A DNA stretch of 64,000 nucleotides from contig NZ_AP014724.1 of NCBI RefSeq assembly GCF_001548055.1, positions 806,001-870,000 on the forward strand, given 5' to 3'. A program made the position numbers and the translations under genes. The stretch is from Sulfurospirillum cavolei (GTDB taxonomy: Bacteria > Campylobacterota > Campylobacteria > Campylobacterales > Sulfurospirillaceae). This document shows, one piece after another, positions 54,047-60,147 of the stretch. Position 1 is the stretch's first letter; each line of letters opens with the position of its first letter. Under the pieces are notes generated by a model. It saw only the letters and a list, made by a program, of their open reading frames with translations. It was not told the origin of the DNA and searched no databases.

Positions 54047-55261
54047 ATGTTATGGCAAGATAAAACCAATAAAAGCATCCGCCAAATCAATTTTATGGCA
54101 CTTTTGTTTGCGGGGTTGTTTGTTTTTATTTTTGCTTGTTTGATTATCGCGAACGAATATTTTGCTTACCAAAAAGAGATCGAACGCATCGAAGCATCGT
54201 ACCCCTCGACATTGTTAACGCTTGGAAACAGCGTCGAAGCGGCACATTCGCTTGAGGTCGTTTTGGAGCATAAGCACAAAGAGTACAAAGATAAAATCAT
54301 CGACTTTATGGTCAAAATTTATGCGTTGGCACTCGTGATGTATATGATCAGTACGATCGAGTACCGCTACGTCAATGAGTTGATGGCGCGCGAAGTGCGT
54401 TTGATCGTCGCGTCGTTTAAAGAAGCGGCGCAGAGTTACCGTTTTATCGATACGGAAAAGATGCGTTTTCGAGAATTTCGCGAGATTGCCAACCACGCCA
54501 ACGCGATGATCGAGGAGATTCACGGTAAAAACGACGATCTAGCAAAGCTCAATACCAACTTGGAGGCGATCATCGAGCAAAAGACCGAAGAGCTCAAACG
54601 CTCGGTCGCCTATACGCAAGAGCTTTTGGAAACGCAAGACCGTTTTGTGAAAAATGCGATCCACGAGATCAATACGCCCCTTTCGATCATTTTAATGAAC
54701 ATCGATTTGTACAATCTCAAATTTGAAAAAAATCCTTACCTCGTCAAAATCGAAGCGGCGGTGAAGGTGCTTGACAATATTTACGAAGATTTGGCGTACG
54801 TGGCAAAAAAAGATCATGTTGTCTATGCCAAATCGATGGTCGATTTTTCATCGTTTTTACAAGAGAGGGTGCATTATTTTGAAGATGTTGCCGAAGGAAA
54901 CAAGCTGACGCTTTGTACCGACATAAGCCCCGATCTTTTTATCGTTTTCAACGAGATCGAGTTGCAGCGTATTTGCGACAACAATATCTCCAATGCGATA
55001 AAATACAGTTACGAAAAACAAAACGTACATGTCAAGCTTTACGCGCAAGAGGCATTCGTTGTTTTTGAAGTACAAAACGTCGGCGATACGATTCAGTCTC
55101 TTGAAAATCTTTTCAGCCGATACTACCGTGAAAACGACGTTCGCGGCGGTTTTGGCTTGGGACTCAATATCGTCAAAGAGATTTGCGATCGTAACGACGT
55201 TGAGGTCAGCGTGGCTTCGGACACGTCGACGCGTTTTACGTACCGTTTTAGGAAAGGATAA
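54047..55261 (+). CDS. sensor histidine kinase
   Basis: Membrane kinase of 404 residues. Two membrane helices (about 17-38 and 89-105) flank a short periplasmic loop, followed by a coiled-coil linker. The HisKA H-box is NAIHEINTPLSIIL, with N-box CDNNISNAIKYSYEK and G-box GGFGLGLNIVKEIC. A periplasmic sensing domain of only about 50 residues suggests sensing in or near the membrane. The start ATG lies inside an ACATGT core. The response regulator follows after 2 bases and the acetate genes come next. Confidence 0.92.
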   Translation: MLWQDKTNKSIRQINFMALLFAGLFVFIFACLIIANEYFAYQKEIERIEASYPSTLLTLGNSVEAAHSLEVVLEHKHKEYKDKIIDFMVKIYALALVMYMISTIEYRYVNELMAREVRLIVASFKEAAQSYRFIDTEKMRFREFREIANHANAMIEEIHGKNDDLAKLNTNLEAIIEQKTEELKRSVAYTQELLETQDRFVKNAIHEINTPLSIILMNIDLYNLKFEKNPYLVKIEAAVKVLDNIYEDLAYVAKKDHVVYAKSMVDFSSFLQERVHYFEDVAEGNKLTLCTDISPDLFIVFNEIELQRICDNNISNAIKYSYEKQNVHVKLYAQEAFVVFEVQNVGDTIQSLENLFSRYYRENDVRGGFGLGLNIVKEICDRNDVEVSVASDTSTRFTYRFRKG

Positions 55262-55263
55262 CG

Positions 55264-55941
55264 ATGAAAATTTTGCTTTTGGAAGACGAATGGATGCTTC
55301 GCAGTTCGATTGAGGAGTATTTGGAAGCGTTAGGGCACAAAGTCGTGAGTTTCGGTAAAGGAGACGAAGCGTATGCCGCGATCCGCCAAGAGTCGTTCGA
55401 TCTTTTAATTTTAGACATTAACATTCCGAAAATGACGGGTTTGGAACTCTTAAAATCGCTCAACGAGATCGAACAAAACTATCCGAGCATTTTTATTAGT
55501 GCCAACGTCGATATCGACGATATTACCCAAGCCTTTGAACTCGGAGCGTCGGATTACCTGAAAAAACCGTTTCATCTGAAAGAGTTGGGGCTTCGTATCG
55601 ATAAAATTAAAAAAGAGTATGAGATCAAACGGATGCAACACATCATCTTAAGTCCCAAATACGTCTTCTCCAAACAAGAGCAAATGTTGTTTTACAATAA
55701 TAATGTTCAAGTCTTGACCAAAAAACAGTTACAAATAGTGACACTATTGTGCGAGAACATCGGCATCGTGGTAGACTTCGAAAAATTTCGCAGTTACGCA
55801 TGGAACGACGAACCGGTCGACAATGCCACAATTAGGGCTGAAATAAGCCGTTTTCGTAAGCTTCTTAAGGAAGATTTTATTGTCAATCTCAAAGGCGTCG
55901 GCTATAAAATTGAACGTTACTTACCGGAGCAAAAGCGTTAA
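55264..55941 (+). CDS. OmpR-family response regulator
   Basis: DNA-binding regulator of 225 residues. The receiver domain has the acidic pocket (LLLEDEW), phospho-acceptor Asp in LLILDINIPKMTG, the Ser/Thr switch in IFISANV, and Lys in DYLKKPFH. The C-terminal winged helix ends in the OmpR wing (VNLKGVGYKIER). Its direct placement before DUF485-actP-acs suggests it controls acetate uptake, which is inference; the well-known acetate regulator CrbR is of a different (LuxR) type. Confidence 0.92.
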   Translation: MKILLLEDEWMLRSSIEEYLEALGHKVVSFGKGDEAYAAIRQESFDLLILDINIPKMTGLELLKSLNEIEQNYPSIFISANVDIDDITQAFELGASDYLKKPFHLKELGLRIDKIKKEYEIKRMQHIILSPKYVFSKQEQMLFYNNNVQVLTKKQLQIVTLLCENIGIVVDFEKFRSYAWNDEPVDNATIRAEISRFRKLLKEDFIVNLKGVGYKIERYLPEQKR

Positions 55942-56072: not shown

Positions 56073-56387
56073 ATGAGCCAACATGTCTACGACAGAGTCA
56101 AGGCAAATCCAAAATTTGCCGAACTCGTACAAAAAAGAAGCCGCTTTGCATGGCAACTTTCGATTGTGATGCTTGTCGTGTATTACGCGTTTATTCTCGT
56201 AATTGCTTTTTCTCCCGCAACCTTTGCGCAAAAGATCGGAGAGGGCGTTACGACGGTCGGAATTCCGGTAGGATTGGCGGTCATCGTGATCGCGTTTGTG
56301 CTTACGGGTATCTACACTCAACGAGCCAACGGAGAATTTGACGATATGACGCATCAAATTAAAGAAGAAGTAAGGAGCGTCGAATGA
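56073..56387 (+). CDS. DUF485 (YjcH-like) membrane protein
   Basis: A 104-residue inner-membrane protein with two helices: residues about 27-48 ([20 protein letters not shown]) and 63-85 ([20 protein letters not shown]). The N-terminal pattern [20 protein letters not shown] is typical of the family. These proteins are regularly encoded immediately before acetate symporters and are thought to assist them. It overlaps actP by 4 bases. Confidence 0.92.
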
Positions 56388-58024
56388 AATGGGGCTTACT
56401 CCTTTTAAGCTTAAGCAGCTTTGTTTTTGCGGCAGACGCACAATTTAGCGGTAAACGCGACATCAACGTATCGGCGATCGTGATGTTTTTGATTTTCGTT
56501 TTAGCAACGCTGGGCATTACGTACTGGGCGGCTAAAAGAACCAAAACGGCGAAAGATTTTTACACTGCCGGCGGGGGAATTACGGGTTTTCAAAACGGTC
56601 TTGCGATCGCGGGAGATTATATGTCCGCGGCATCGTTTTTAGGCATTTCGGGCTTGGTTTACCTCAAAGGATTTGACGGATTGATCTACTCCATCGGATT
56701 TTTGGTCGGTTGGCCGATTATCTTATTTTTGGTGGCGGAGCAACTTCGAAATCTCGGAAAATATACGTTTAGCGACGTGGCATCGTACCGTTTACGACAA
56801 ACACCGATCCGAACGTTGGCGGCTTTAGGCTCTTTAGCGACGGTGGCGTTGTATTTGATCGCGCAAATGGTCGGTGCGGGGCAATTGATTCAGATTTTGT
56901 TCGGGCTTGATTACGAATATGCGGTCGTGATGGTCGGTATTTTGATGATTCTTTACGTAACGTTCGGCGGTATGTTGGCGACGACGTGGGTGCAAATCAT
57001 CAAAGCAGTTTTGTTACTTTCCGGCGCATCGTTTATGGCGATTATGATTATGTATCAAGTCGGATTTAGTTTTGAAACGCTCTTTTCGCAAGCGGTTGCA
57101 GCTAAGAAAAGTGCTGCGATCATGGCTCCGGGCGGGTTAGTCAGCGATCCAATTTCGGCGATTAGCTTAGGTATGGCGTTGATGTTCGGAACGGCGGGAT
57201 TACCGCATATCTTGATGCGATTCTTTACCGTAAGCGATGCAAAAGAAGCGAGAAAGTCGGTCTTTTTTGCGACGGGATTTATCGGTTACTTTTATATTTT
57301 AACGTTTATTATCGGATTTGGTGCTATCGTTTTGTTAACCAATAATCCGGATTATCTCGATCCGATTAAAGGCGGCATTATCGGCGGGGGTAACATGTCG
57401 GCGATTCACACGGCCCATGCGATCGGCGGAAACCTTTTCTTAGGGTTTATCTCGGCGGTTGCGTTTGCGACGATCTTGGCGGTTGTTTCGGGATTGACGC
57501 TTGCGGGTGCAAGTGCGGTCAGCCACGATCTTTACGCGAACGTCTTTGCCAGAGGTCGCGTGGATGAGATGATGGAGATGAAGGTATCGAAATACTCGAC
57601 GATCGCTTTAGGTATTGTTGCGATTTTCTTGGGAATTGCGTTTGAAAAACAAAACATCGCGTTCATGGTAGGACTTGCGTTTGCAATTGCGGCAAGTGCG
57701 AACTTCCCTATCTTGTTCTTATCGATGTTCTGGAAAAAGTTGACGACCAAAGGCGCCGTTTGGGGCGGATCGTTGGGACTTTTAACGGCGGTCGTGTTGG
57801 TCGTCTTGAGTAAAGCGGTTTGGGTGGACGTCTTAGGCAATAAAACCGCGATTTACGCCTACGGCAATCCGGCGATCTTCTCGATGGCGGTTGCCTTTAT
57901 CGGAATTTGGCTCTTCTCTTTAATGGATCAAAGCGAAGATGCTAAAAAAGAGATCGAGGCCTACGAGCACCAATTTATCCGAAGTCAAACGGGTATCGGT
58001 GCGGAGGGCGCAAGCGCACATTAA
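56384..58024 (+). CDS. actP: cation/acetate symporter ActP
   Basis: Sodium-solute-symporter family protein of 546 residues with an N-terminal signal-like segment and about 13 membrane helices. Landmarks include [34 protein letters not shown] and the later [21 protein letters not shown]. The pairing with DUF485 upstream and acs downstream supports acetate (or pyruvate/propionate) as substrate. The 3' spacer holds a tandem repeat. Confidence 0.93.
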
Positions 58025-58026
58025 GA

Positions 58027-58159
58027 GGCTTTGCCTTGACATGTAAAGAAATTCTGCTTCGTTAGAAGCAAGCTTTAGTAGGTGTTTGGGCTTTGCCTTG
58101 ACATGTAAAGAAATTCTGCTTCGTTAGAAGCAAGCTTTAGTAGGTGTTTGGGCTTTGCC
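58027..58159. repeat. 62-bp tandem duplication in the actP-acs spacer
   Basis: Two identical 62-base copies (58027-58088 and 58089-58150) are followed by a 9-base start of a third (GGCTTTGCC). Each copy carries a TGACATGTAAAG site and a small hairpin TGCTTC-GTTA-GAAGCA. The flanking 9-base direct repeats are the likely slippage points that produced the duplication. Confidence 0.9.
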
Positions 58160-58167
58160 CAAACACC
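58143..58167 (+). terminator. terminator-like hairpin before acs
   Basis: A perfect 11-bp stem GGTGTTTGGGC / GCCCAAACACC with a TTT loop. No long T run follows on the plus strand. It may stop or attenuate transcription from actP into acs; in the first repeat copy the right arm of this hairpin is missing. Confidence 0.65.
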
Positions 58168-58197
58168 GTGTAAAAATGAACTTTAAGGATTAGAACA

Positions 58198-60147
58198 ATG
58201 TCACACGTTTTTGAACCTAACAGAACACTCAGCAAAGAGGCAAGAATTAAAAATATGTGCGAATACAAAGAGCTTTGTATTCAAGCCGATGAAAATTTCG
58301 AGGGGTATTGGGATAAGCTTGCTCGCGAAAAAATCGAATGGTTTAAACCTTACGATCGCGTACTCAACGAAGATAACGCTCCGTTTTACAAATGGTTTGA
58401 AGGAGGAAAACTCAACGTTACGCATCAATGTTTAGGCAGGCATTTAAACAGTCGTAAAAATAAGGCGGCGATTATTTGGGAAGGTGAAGACGGCAAACGC
58501 CGCATCATTACCTACCTTCAACTTTTTTATCGCGTCAATCGTTTAGCGAATTTGATGCGCAATCGTTTCGGGATTAAAAAAGGCGACCGCGTCGTTTTGT
58601 ACATGCCGATGATTCCCGAAGCGGCGTTTGCGATGTTGGCGTGCGCTAAAATCGGAGCGATCCATTCGGTCGTATTCGGCGGGTTTTCGGCAGATGCTTT
58701 AAGAGATCGTATTCAAGATGCACAGGCCAAACTCGTCATCACCGCCGACGGTGCGTTTCGACGCGGTAAACCTTACATGTTAAAACCCGTCGTCGATGAA
58801 GCACTGAAAGAAGGGTGTGAATGTTGCGACAAAGTGTTGATCGTTCAACGCAACTTTGAGGACATCGAGTACGTTCCGGGGCGCGATTACGTTTACAACG
58901 AAATTATCATGAACGAATCGCAATACTGCGAGGCTGAGTGGATGGATGCGGAAGATCCGCTTTTCTTACTTTATACCTCGGGAAGTACGGGTAAACCTAA
59001 AGGCGTTCAGCACAGTAGTGCCGGTTATATCCTTTGGGCGCAATACACGATGGAACACGTTTTCGACGTGAAAGAAAACGATACGTTTTGGTGTACGGCG
59101 GACGTGGGCTGGATAACGGGGCATACGTACATCGTTTACGGTCCGTTGGCAATGGGTGCAACGACCATTATGTACGAAGGCGTTCCGACGTTCCCCGATG
59201 TCGGTCGATGGTGGAGTATGATCGAAGAGCATCGCGTCAATCAGTTTTACACCGCACCGACGGCGATTCGATTGTTGCATAAAGAGGGAGCCGATGCACC
59301 CAAACGTTACGATTTGAGTTCGCTCAAAGTCTTAGGAACGGTCGGCGAACCGATCAATCCCGATGCGTGGATGTGGTACTATGAGGAGATCGGCGGCGGA
59401 CGTTGTCCGATCGTGGATACGTGGTGGCAAACCGAAACGGGCGGTCATATGATTACGCCGCTTCCGGGTGCGACACCGATTAAACCTGGTTCGGCGACGT
59501 TTCCGCTTCCGGGCATTAAAGCAGAGATTTTAGATGAGCATGGACAACGCGTGAGCACGCCGCATGAAAAAGGCTTTTTATGCATTACGCGCCCGTGGCC
59601 GTCCATGATTCGCAATATCTGGGGTGATAGCGATCGCTTTGTGAAGTCGTATTTCGGCGATCATAAAAAAGACGGTGTTCCCGTGTACTTTTCGGGAGAC
59701 GGTGCGATGTACGACGAAGACGGTTATATTATCATTACCGGACGTACGGATGATGTTATTAACGTTTCGGGTCACCGCATCGGAACGGCGGAAATCGAAG
59801 CCGTCCTCGGGCATCATGAGAACGTTGCCGAAGTGGCGGTCGTCGGACGTCCCGATCCGATCAAAGGAGAGGGTATTTTTGCGTATATCGTGATTAAAGG
59901 CGACGATACCATCGGCGAAGAAGTTTACATGATCCAAGAGCTCAACAAGCTGATCGTCAAAGAGATCGGCAATATCGCCAAACTCGATGCGATTCGTTTC
60001 GTTCCGGGACTTCCGAAAACCAGAAGCGGCAAGATCATGCGAAGAATTTTACGTTCGATCGCAAAGAAAGAGCCGATCACTCAAGATATCTCAACGTTGG
60101 AAGATCCAAGCATCGTTGAGAAGATCCAAAATCTCGTCCAGTTCTAA
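58198..60147 (+). CDS. acs: acetyl-CoA synthetase
   Basis: AMP-forming ligase that activates acetate for assimilation. The 649 residues contain the adenylate-forming P-loop [56 protein letters not shown] and [15 protein letters not shown]. The acetylatable Lys is in [10 protein letters not shown], which is usually controlled by Pat/CobB-type enzymes. It works with ActP. An AAGGA ribosome site is just upstream. Confidence 0.97.

Follow-up and report, generated by a model that had tools for sequence, protein, structure and literature searches.

The acetate genes actP and acs of Sulfurospirillum cavolei are separated by a gap of 173 bp, most of which is occupied by a tandem array of two 62-bp units beginning 3 nt past the actP stop codon. 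An earlier note had read this array as a recent duplication, with possible consequences for the balance between acetate uptake and activation. The question raised by the locus is whether the array is a device that belongs to acetate metabolism, or whether it is a local instance of something found elsewhere in the genome and in its relatives. Below, the array is considered within the window (the whole 64,000-nt stretch of DNA that was analysed), within the genome and across the genus.

The array between actP and acs

The features of the array are collected in Table 1. The two flanking genes are indeed actP and acs, each scoring above the cut-off of its NCBIfam model. The two 62-nt copies align at 100% identity, and Tandem Repeats Finder reports a period of 62, 2.1 copies, 100% matches and a score of 266, the other five arrays that it finds in the window scoring 51–57, far below. 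An exact repeat of a 62-mer cannot be put down to chance. Alignment and Tandem Repeats Finder thus bear out what the earlier note had seen, namely two identical copies followed by a 9-base remnant, and the presence of an ACATGT site and a hairpin in each unit is likewise confirmed. It should be noted that unit 1 lacks its own hairpin-B 3′ arm and tail. The RNA fold predicted for the whole array has an energy of −57.6 kcal/mol (z −5.55), and in this fold the 5′ arm of unit 1 would pair with the single 3′ arm, enclosing unit 2. Just upstream of actP, and in the same direction, lie genes for a histidine kinase and an OmpR-type response regulator (54047–55941 in the window), a pair that is a candidate regulator of the acetate genes.

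Table 1. Features of the actP–acs region (window coordinates)
Feature	Coordinates	Strand	Remark
actP, cation/acetate symporter	56384..58024	+	NCBIfam NF006903, 940.1 bits (cut-off 750)
Repeat unit 1, 62 bp	58027..58088	+	GGCTTTGCC core, ACATGT site, hairpin A, GTAG, hairpin B 5′ arm
ACATGT in unit 1	58039..58044	.	Context TTGACATGTAAA, 1 base off TTTACATGTAAA
Unit 1, match to model R1	58051–58112	+	42 bits
Hairpin A of unit 1	58055..58070	+	TGCTTC-GTTA-GAAGCA
Repeat unit 2, 62 bp	58089..58150	+	Identical to unit 1
ACATGT in unit 2	58101..58106	.	
Complete acs-proximal element	58113..58181	+	Hairpin A, GTAG, hairpin B and tail; R1, 76.8 bits, E 5.3e-19 (one of the 32 copies on which R1 was trained)
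Hairpin A of unit 2	58117..58132	+	
GTAG tag	58140..58143	+	Last G closes hairpin B; invariant in 32/32 alignment rows (rows selected for a GTAG-like end)
Hairpin B	58143..58167	+	11-bp stem, TTT loop; T tract absent after stem
GGCTTTGCC remnant	58151..58159	+	Tip of hairpin B; direct repeat where the duplication joined
GTGTAAAAAT tail	58168..58177	+	Ends 20 nt before acs ATG; possible −10-like or leader segment
acs, acetate--CoA ligase	58198..60147	+	NCBIfam TIGR02188, 975.9 bits (cut-off 724.95)

A dispersed composite repeat with changing unit number

Parts of the unit match other places in the S. cavolei genome and in relatives, and from these places a common composite can be read: TTCTGCCTC-loop-GAGGCAAGCTTTAGTGC...AACGTAG, then hairpin B, then GTGTAAAAAT. 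Thirty-two copies were picked by hand and aligned; the alignment folds into a hairpin A of 6 bp and a hairpin B of 11 bp with a 3-nt loop. The rows were chosen by a pattern for hairpin A and a GTAG-like end, which favours hairpin A, while the stem of hairpin B lay outside the pattern and is free of it. In this alignment 97.6% of the cells are paired, with two-sided changes in 11 of the 17 pairs; the observed value was reached by none of 500 shuffles on any of five measures, and pairing drops to 29–56% in slid structures. Hairpin B taken separately is 96.9% paired. Both hairpins are supported by covariation. The spacer between hairpin A and the GTAG is absent from the copies of the window and of UBA4058, the closest genome found, and present in most others. 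At least three sub-types can be told by eye, with hairpin B and the tail in common: type 1 carries hairpin A, another a GCACC-GAA-GGTGC hairpin with a period near 92 bp, and another a GAGTTCT hairpin after the tail. Arrays of three to four units of the GCACC-hairpin sub-type stand before unrelated genes at 664577–664922, 1484945–1485198 and 77975–78230 of the genome. A known RNA family was also considered for the repeat and rejected, no Rfam family scoring above its gathering score in the window or near it in seven element loci.

A model built from the alignment, R1, which finds its training copies by construction, gives at least 54 matches in the S. cavolei genome at E ≤ 0.01. Across the genus there are matches in all 24 genomes, at least 7–88 in each and at least 945 in total, these counts being lower bounds with 150 candidates scored per genome; BLASTN with another copy of the repeat as query matched 23 of the 24. 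When 121 evenly sampled genomes of the class were scored under a stricter threshold (E ≤ 0.001), R1 matched eight: three of the genus (at least 37 matches each), one other member of the family (2) and four of the order (1, 1, 1 and 10). The acs repeat is therefore one of about fifty dispersed copies in its own genome, and this makes a switch specific to acetate probably the wrong way to regard it. We consider, at a probability of about 0.72, that the array belongs, as a member of unstable copy number, to a family of intergenic repeats that form hairpins and are dispersed throughout Sulfurospirillum. The literature that was searched describes neither this composite repeat nor the TTTACATGTAAA palindrome discussed below for Sulfurospirillum; the two are the larger objects behind the acs array, and are apparently undescribed.

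Instability is seen both within the genome and between genomes. The matches listed (at least 54) group into 38 arrays, 11 of which have two to four units, all 11 head to tail with spacings of 62–134 bp. The DNA of UBA4058 is 92–94% identical around the acs array and 88% on the actP side, and flank matching between the two genomes yields 16 orthologous sites with the element in both. At seven of these 16 the unit number differs, a proportion that covers only sites where both genomes carry the element. The differences (S. cavolei v UBA4058) are 2 v 1 at acs, 2 v 1 at fba, 4 v 2 at mscS, 3 v 2 at the 78-kb site, 2 v 1 at the 306-kb site and 1 v 2 at the 918-kb site, together with an extra 202 bp, equal to two 101-bp units, at a ferredoxin-type locus whose flanks are 99 and 97% identical. 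The names fba, mscS and ferredoxin-type were assigned by eye from the DNA, and the difference at fba is based on R1 matches and a badly cut global alignment. Two further sites (L251 and L254), where R1 finds one unit fewer in UBA4058 and the length difference is only +22 and −4 bp, were counted as equal. An indel of +59 bp at another site (L271) was rejected as a unit change, as it falls outside the unit. At two loci, acs and the ferredoxin-type one, the breakpoints could be read directly and lie at the hairpin-B core; at the latter, the two extra 101-bp units join at this core. From the 11 multi-unit arrays among 38 and the seven differing sites among 16, it follows that change of copy number is a habit of the family, and the acs duplication, with similar changes at other sites, is thus one instance of it.

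At the actP–acs site of UBA4058 there is a single two-hairpin, GTAG-tagged element, and the window has one 62-bp unit more. The UBA4058 unit is preceded by GGGCTTTGCC, so that the GGCTTTGCC remnant already stands in front of the unit; the unit differs from those of the array at a few positions, one difference being that it has TTTACATGTAAA intact in place of the TTGACATGTAAA seen in S. cavolei. The hairpin-B tip is GGCAAAACC in UBA4058 and GGCTTTGCC in the window, the one nearly the reverse complement of the other, as if the tip had been flipped. Among 24 genus loci around acs the element is present in 10, with two units only in the genome of the window. The nearest relative having a single, slightly different unit, the duplication is recent, and from this and the identity of the two window copies it most likely took place after the lineages split. 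These observations support the proposal of a recent event between GGCTTTGCC repeats. The extra unit joins at the GGCTTTGCC core, which stands ahead of the element and again in the hairpin-B tip. One unit would be the ancestral state, and the simplest join would be between two GGCTTTGCC copies 62 bp apart. The join may have come about by replication slippage or by short-homology recombination, in either case perhaps assisted by the hairpins. The slippage origin put forward in the earlier note is right in outline.

Resemblance to REP elements

A short hairpin with GTAG at its foot is what characterises the GTAG REPs, described in PMC3733652 as families GTAG-1 to -24, with a transposase gene flanked by the repeat, a predominance of inverted pairs over tandem order, which is rare, and a preference for the 3′ side of genes. 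The main text of that paper makes no mention of Sulfurospirillum. It is conceivable, but unlikely, that the repeat is a REP-type miniature element moved by the Y1 (RAYT-like) transposase of the genus, the tandem unit being a by-product of hairpin processing. In favour of this, the GTAG is found right at the base of a hairpin supported by covariation, dispersed extragenic copies are numerous (at least 54 in the genome, and matches in 24 of 24 genomes), and 23 of the 24 genus genomes have a Y1_Tnp gene, in most cases as one or two matches. Against it, no R1 element lies within about 1.5 kb of any of 30 Y1_Tnp matches, so a repeat-flanked transposase is not seen, and all 11 multi-unit arrays run head to tail, with no inverted pairs. 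Placement here seems to favour start codons, as against the 3′ side of genes in the REPs of PMC3733652; this third feature looks different, with a weak control (see below). Since two defining features fail, the repeat is REP-like in build and not a member of the group. The sole Y1_Tnp match in the S. cavolei genome is a RAYT-like gene (L167, genome 2417474–2417812) that has no R1 element nearby. A neighbouring Y1 transposase as the mover of the repeat is accordingly not claimed.

As far as the GTAG REPs are described in PMC3733652, the likeness extends to stem-loops scattered between genes, each with GTAG at its 5′ foot, to compensatory changes in the stem, and to the tandem growth of clusters. 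The Sulfurospirillum repeat differs from that description in having a further conserved hairpin as well as a conserved tail, which make it an 80-nt composite, in its head-to-tail order, in standing often just before start codons, and in not lying beside a Y1 transposase gene. Two other kinds of repeat invite comparison. REPINs and their RAYT partners combine many short hairpin repeats with a low-copy Y1 transposase in the same genome; this combination is found in Sulfurospirillum too, whereas inverted pairing and the flanking of a transposase gene are not. BOX and Correia elements are mobile, modular, structured and partly tandem intergenic sequences near genes; likened by description only, the Sulfurospirillum repeat shares their modular, structured and partly tandem build near genes.

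The palindrome, placement before genes and the extra unit

ACATGT is over-represented in the window, where TACATGTA with up to one mismatch occurs 48 times against 12.2 expected. The full palindrome is a 12-mer, TTTACATGTAAA, with 144 exact copies in the S. cavolei genome. All 24 genus genomes contain it, in 14–792 copies each, a reversed 12-mer used as control giving 0–3; of 200 genomes examined from the class, those with more than three copies all belong to this family, apart from four genomes of one other family (86, 21, 14 and 8 copies). The ACATGT of the array, whose context is one base off TTTACATGTAAA, thus represents a palindrome found across the clade, with one base changed. In 120 kb of genome G023, of which only 8% lies outside ORFs, there are 28 sites. 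Half of them (14) fall inside long ORFs, where the frame is always T-TTA-CAT-GTA-AA; the other 14 are not wholly contained in one. Of 48 type-1 copies, which include tandem relatives and are not fully independent, 13 have an ACATGT no more than 60 nt upstream of hairpin A, against 5.5% of random positions, and the numbers of palindromes and repeats in the 24 genomes are weakly correlated (Spearman 0.49, p 0.014). One genome of the same order and another family, G144, combines 10 R1 matches with 21 copies of TTTACATGTAAA, a hint that the two features may have been transferred, or may function, together. A literature search for ACATGT as a genome palindrome returned nothing on Sulfurospirillum by title, and TTTACATGTAAA appeared in the searched literature only in unrelated contexts. 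HIP1 of cyanobacteria is, in the account of PMC4390886, a very abundant palindrome spread through the genomes of a clade. TTTACATGTAAA resembles HIP1 as there described in its strong excess over a composition-matched control across a clade, and differs in being an AT-rich 12-mer of Campylobacterota with half of the sampled sites outside long ORFs.

The composite repeats, made of hairpin A, GTAG-hairpin B and an AT-rich tail, might be leaders that plug into the 5′ side of unrelated genes, fast unit turnover tuning many genes at once and TTTACATGTAAA, often close upstream of hairpin A, serving as the site of a common protein that binds, methylates or mobilises the DNA; we regard this as rather doubtful. 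Among 48 type-1 copies gathered from the genus, five are internal to arrays, and 26 of the other 43 have a start codon within 70 nt, 24 of these 43 terminal copies lying 14–31 nt before one. An open start within 70 nt is also found for 46% of random positions, and with so weak a control reliance is placed on the narrow spacing and not on the fraction. By a separate rule, which asked for a start codon no more than 60 nt away, with a ribosome-site-like motif (AGG, GGA or GAG) and a reading frame open for 60 codons, the last unit of the 38 S. cavolei arrays is followed by a start codon in 18, at 8–31 nt in 15 of them. A leader role is thus not general, as by this rule 20 of the 38 arrays lack a start within about 60 nt. 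The acs copy fits the spacing, with 20 nt from tail to ATG, and like many of the others so placed it is in the sense orientation. A scan across the array found no consensus sigma-70 promoter, and this candidate was rejected; the likeness of the GTGTAAAAAT tail to a −10 box is loose, and such a role for it is a guess.

Alternatively, the units might be tandem terminators or 3′ stabilisers of the actP mRNA. Their start so close to the actP stop codon and the good fold (z −5.55) are in keeping with this, but the earlier note's view of the final stem as terminator-like does not survive, because the stem is followed by GTGTAAAAATG and the terminator scan does not list it. Lacking a T tract, with the GTGTAAAAAT tail in its place, hairpin B is not a standard intrinsic terminator, and that candidate was rejected; the scan gives only two weak matches, to hairpin A on the minus strand. 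Together with the tight spacing of many copies from start codons, this leaves the terminator or stabiliser role improbable.

Still less probable is the contingency device of the earlier note, in which the number of units would switch back and forth within the species and determine how much acetate is taken up relative to how much is activated. Two species do differ in unit number at the acs site (2 v 1), and a second 5′ arm alters the predicted fold, but equal changes are seen at fba, mscS and other sites, and the extra unit lies upstream, leaving the copy next to acs, and its distance from the ATG, untouched and altering no coding frame or promoter spacing. With the repeat standing before many unrelated genes and turning over as readily elsewhere, a device for acetate is not favoured. 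That the assembler doubled a single unit is the most improbable explanation of all: the duplication is known from one assembly of the species and its copies are identical, but the genome is a single contig of 2,698,323 bases at 99.99% completeness, and other arrays show similar unit differences with non-identical copies.

If the array is, as we favour, an unstable member of a dispersed family, the working part for acs would be the intact downstream copy with its tail 20 nt before the ATG, acting probably as a leader or promoter-proximal element. As the acs-proximal end is left unchanged by the duplication, the extra unit may be mostly a passenger. One plausible effect would be that its 5′ arm competes in the transcript for the single 3′ arm of hairpin B.

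Taken alone, the local duplication at acs is ordinary. It leads to two features of the whole genus: a composite repeat that shows covariation and, near genes, quickly gains or loses units, and a palindrome of 12 bp with copies in the hundreds. The two bear on the spread of REP-like repeats and on highly iterated palindromes outside cyanobacteria, and both are easily testable in cultured Sulfurospirillum strains.
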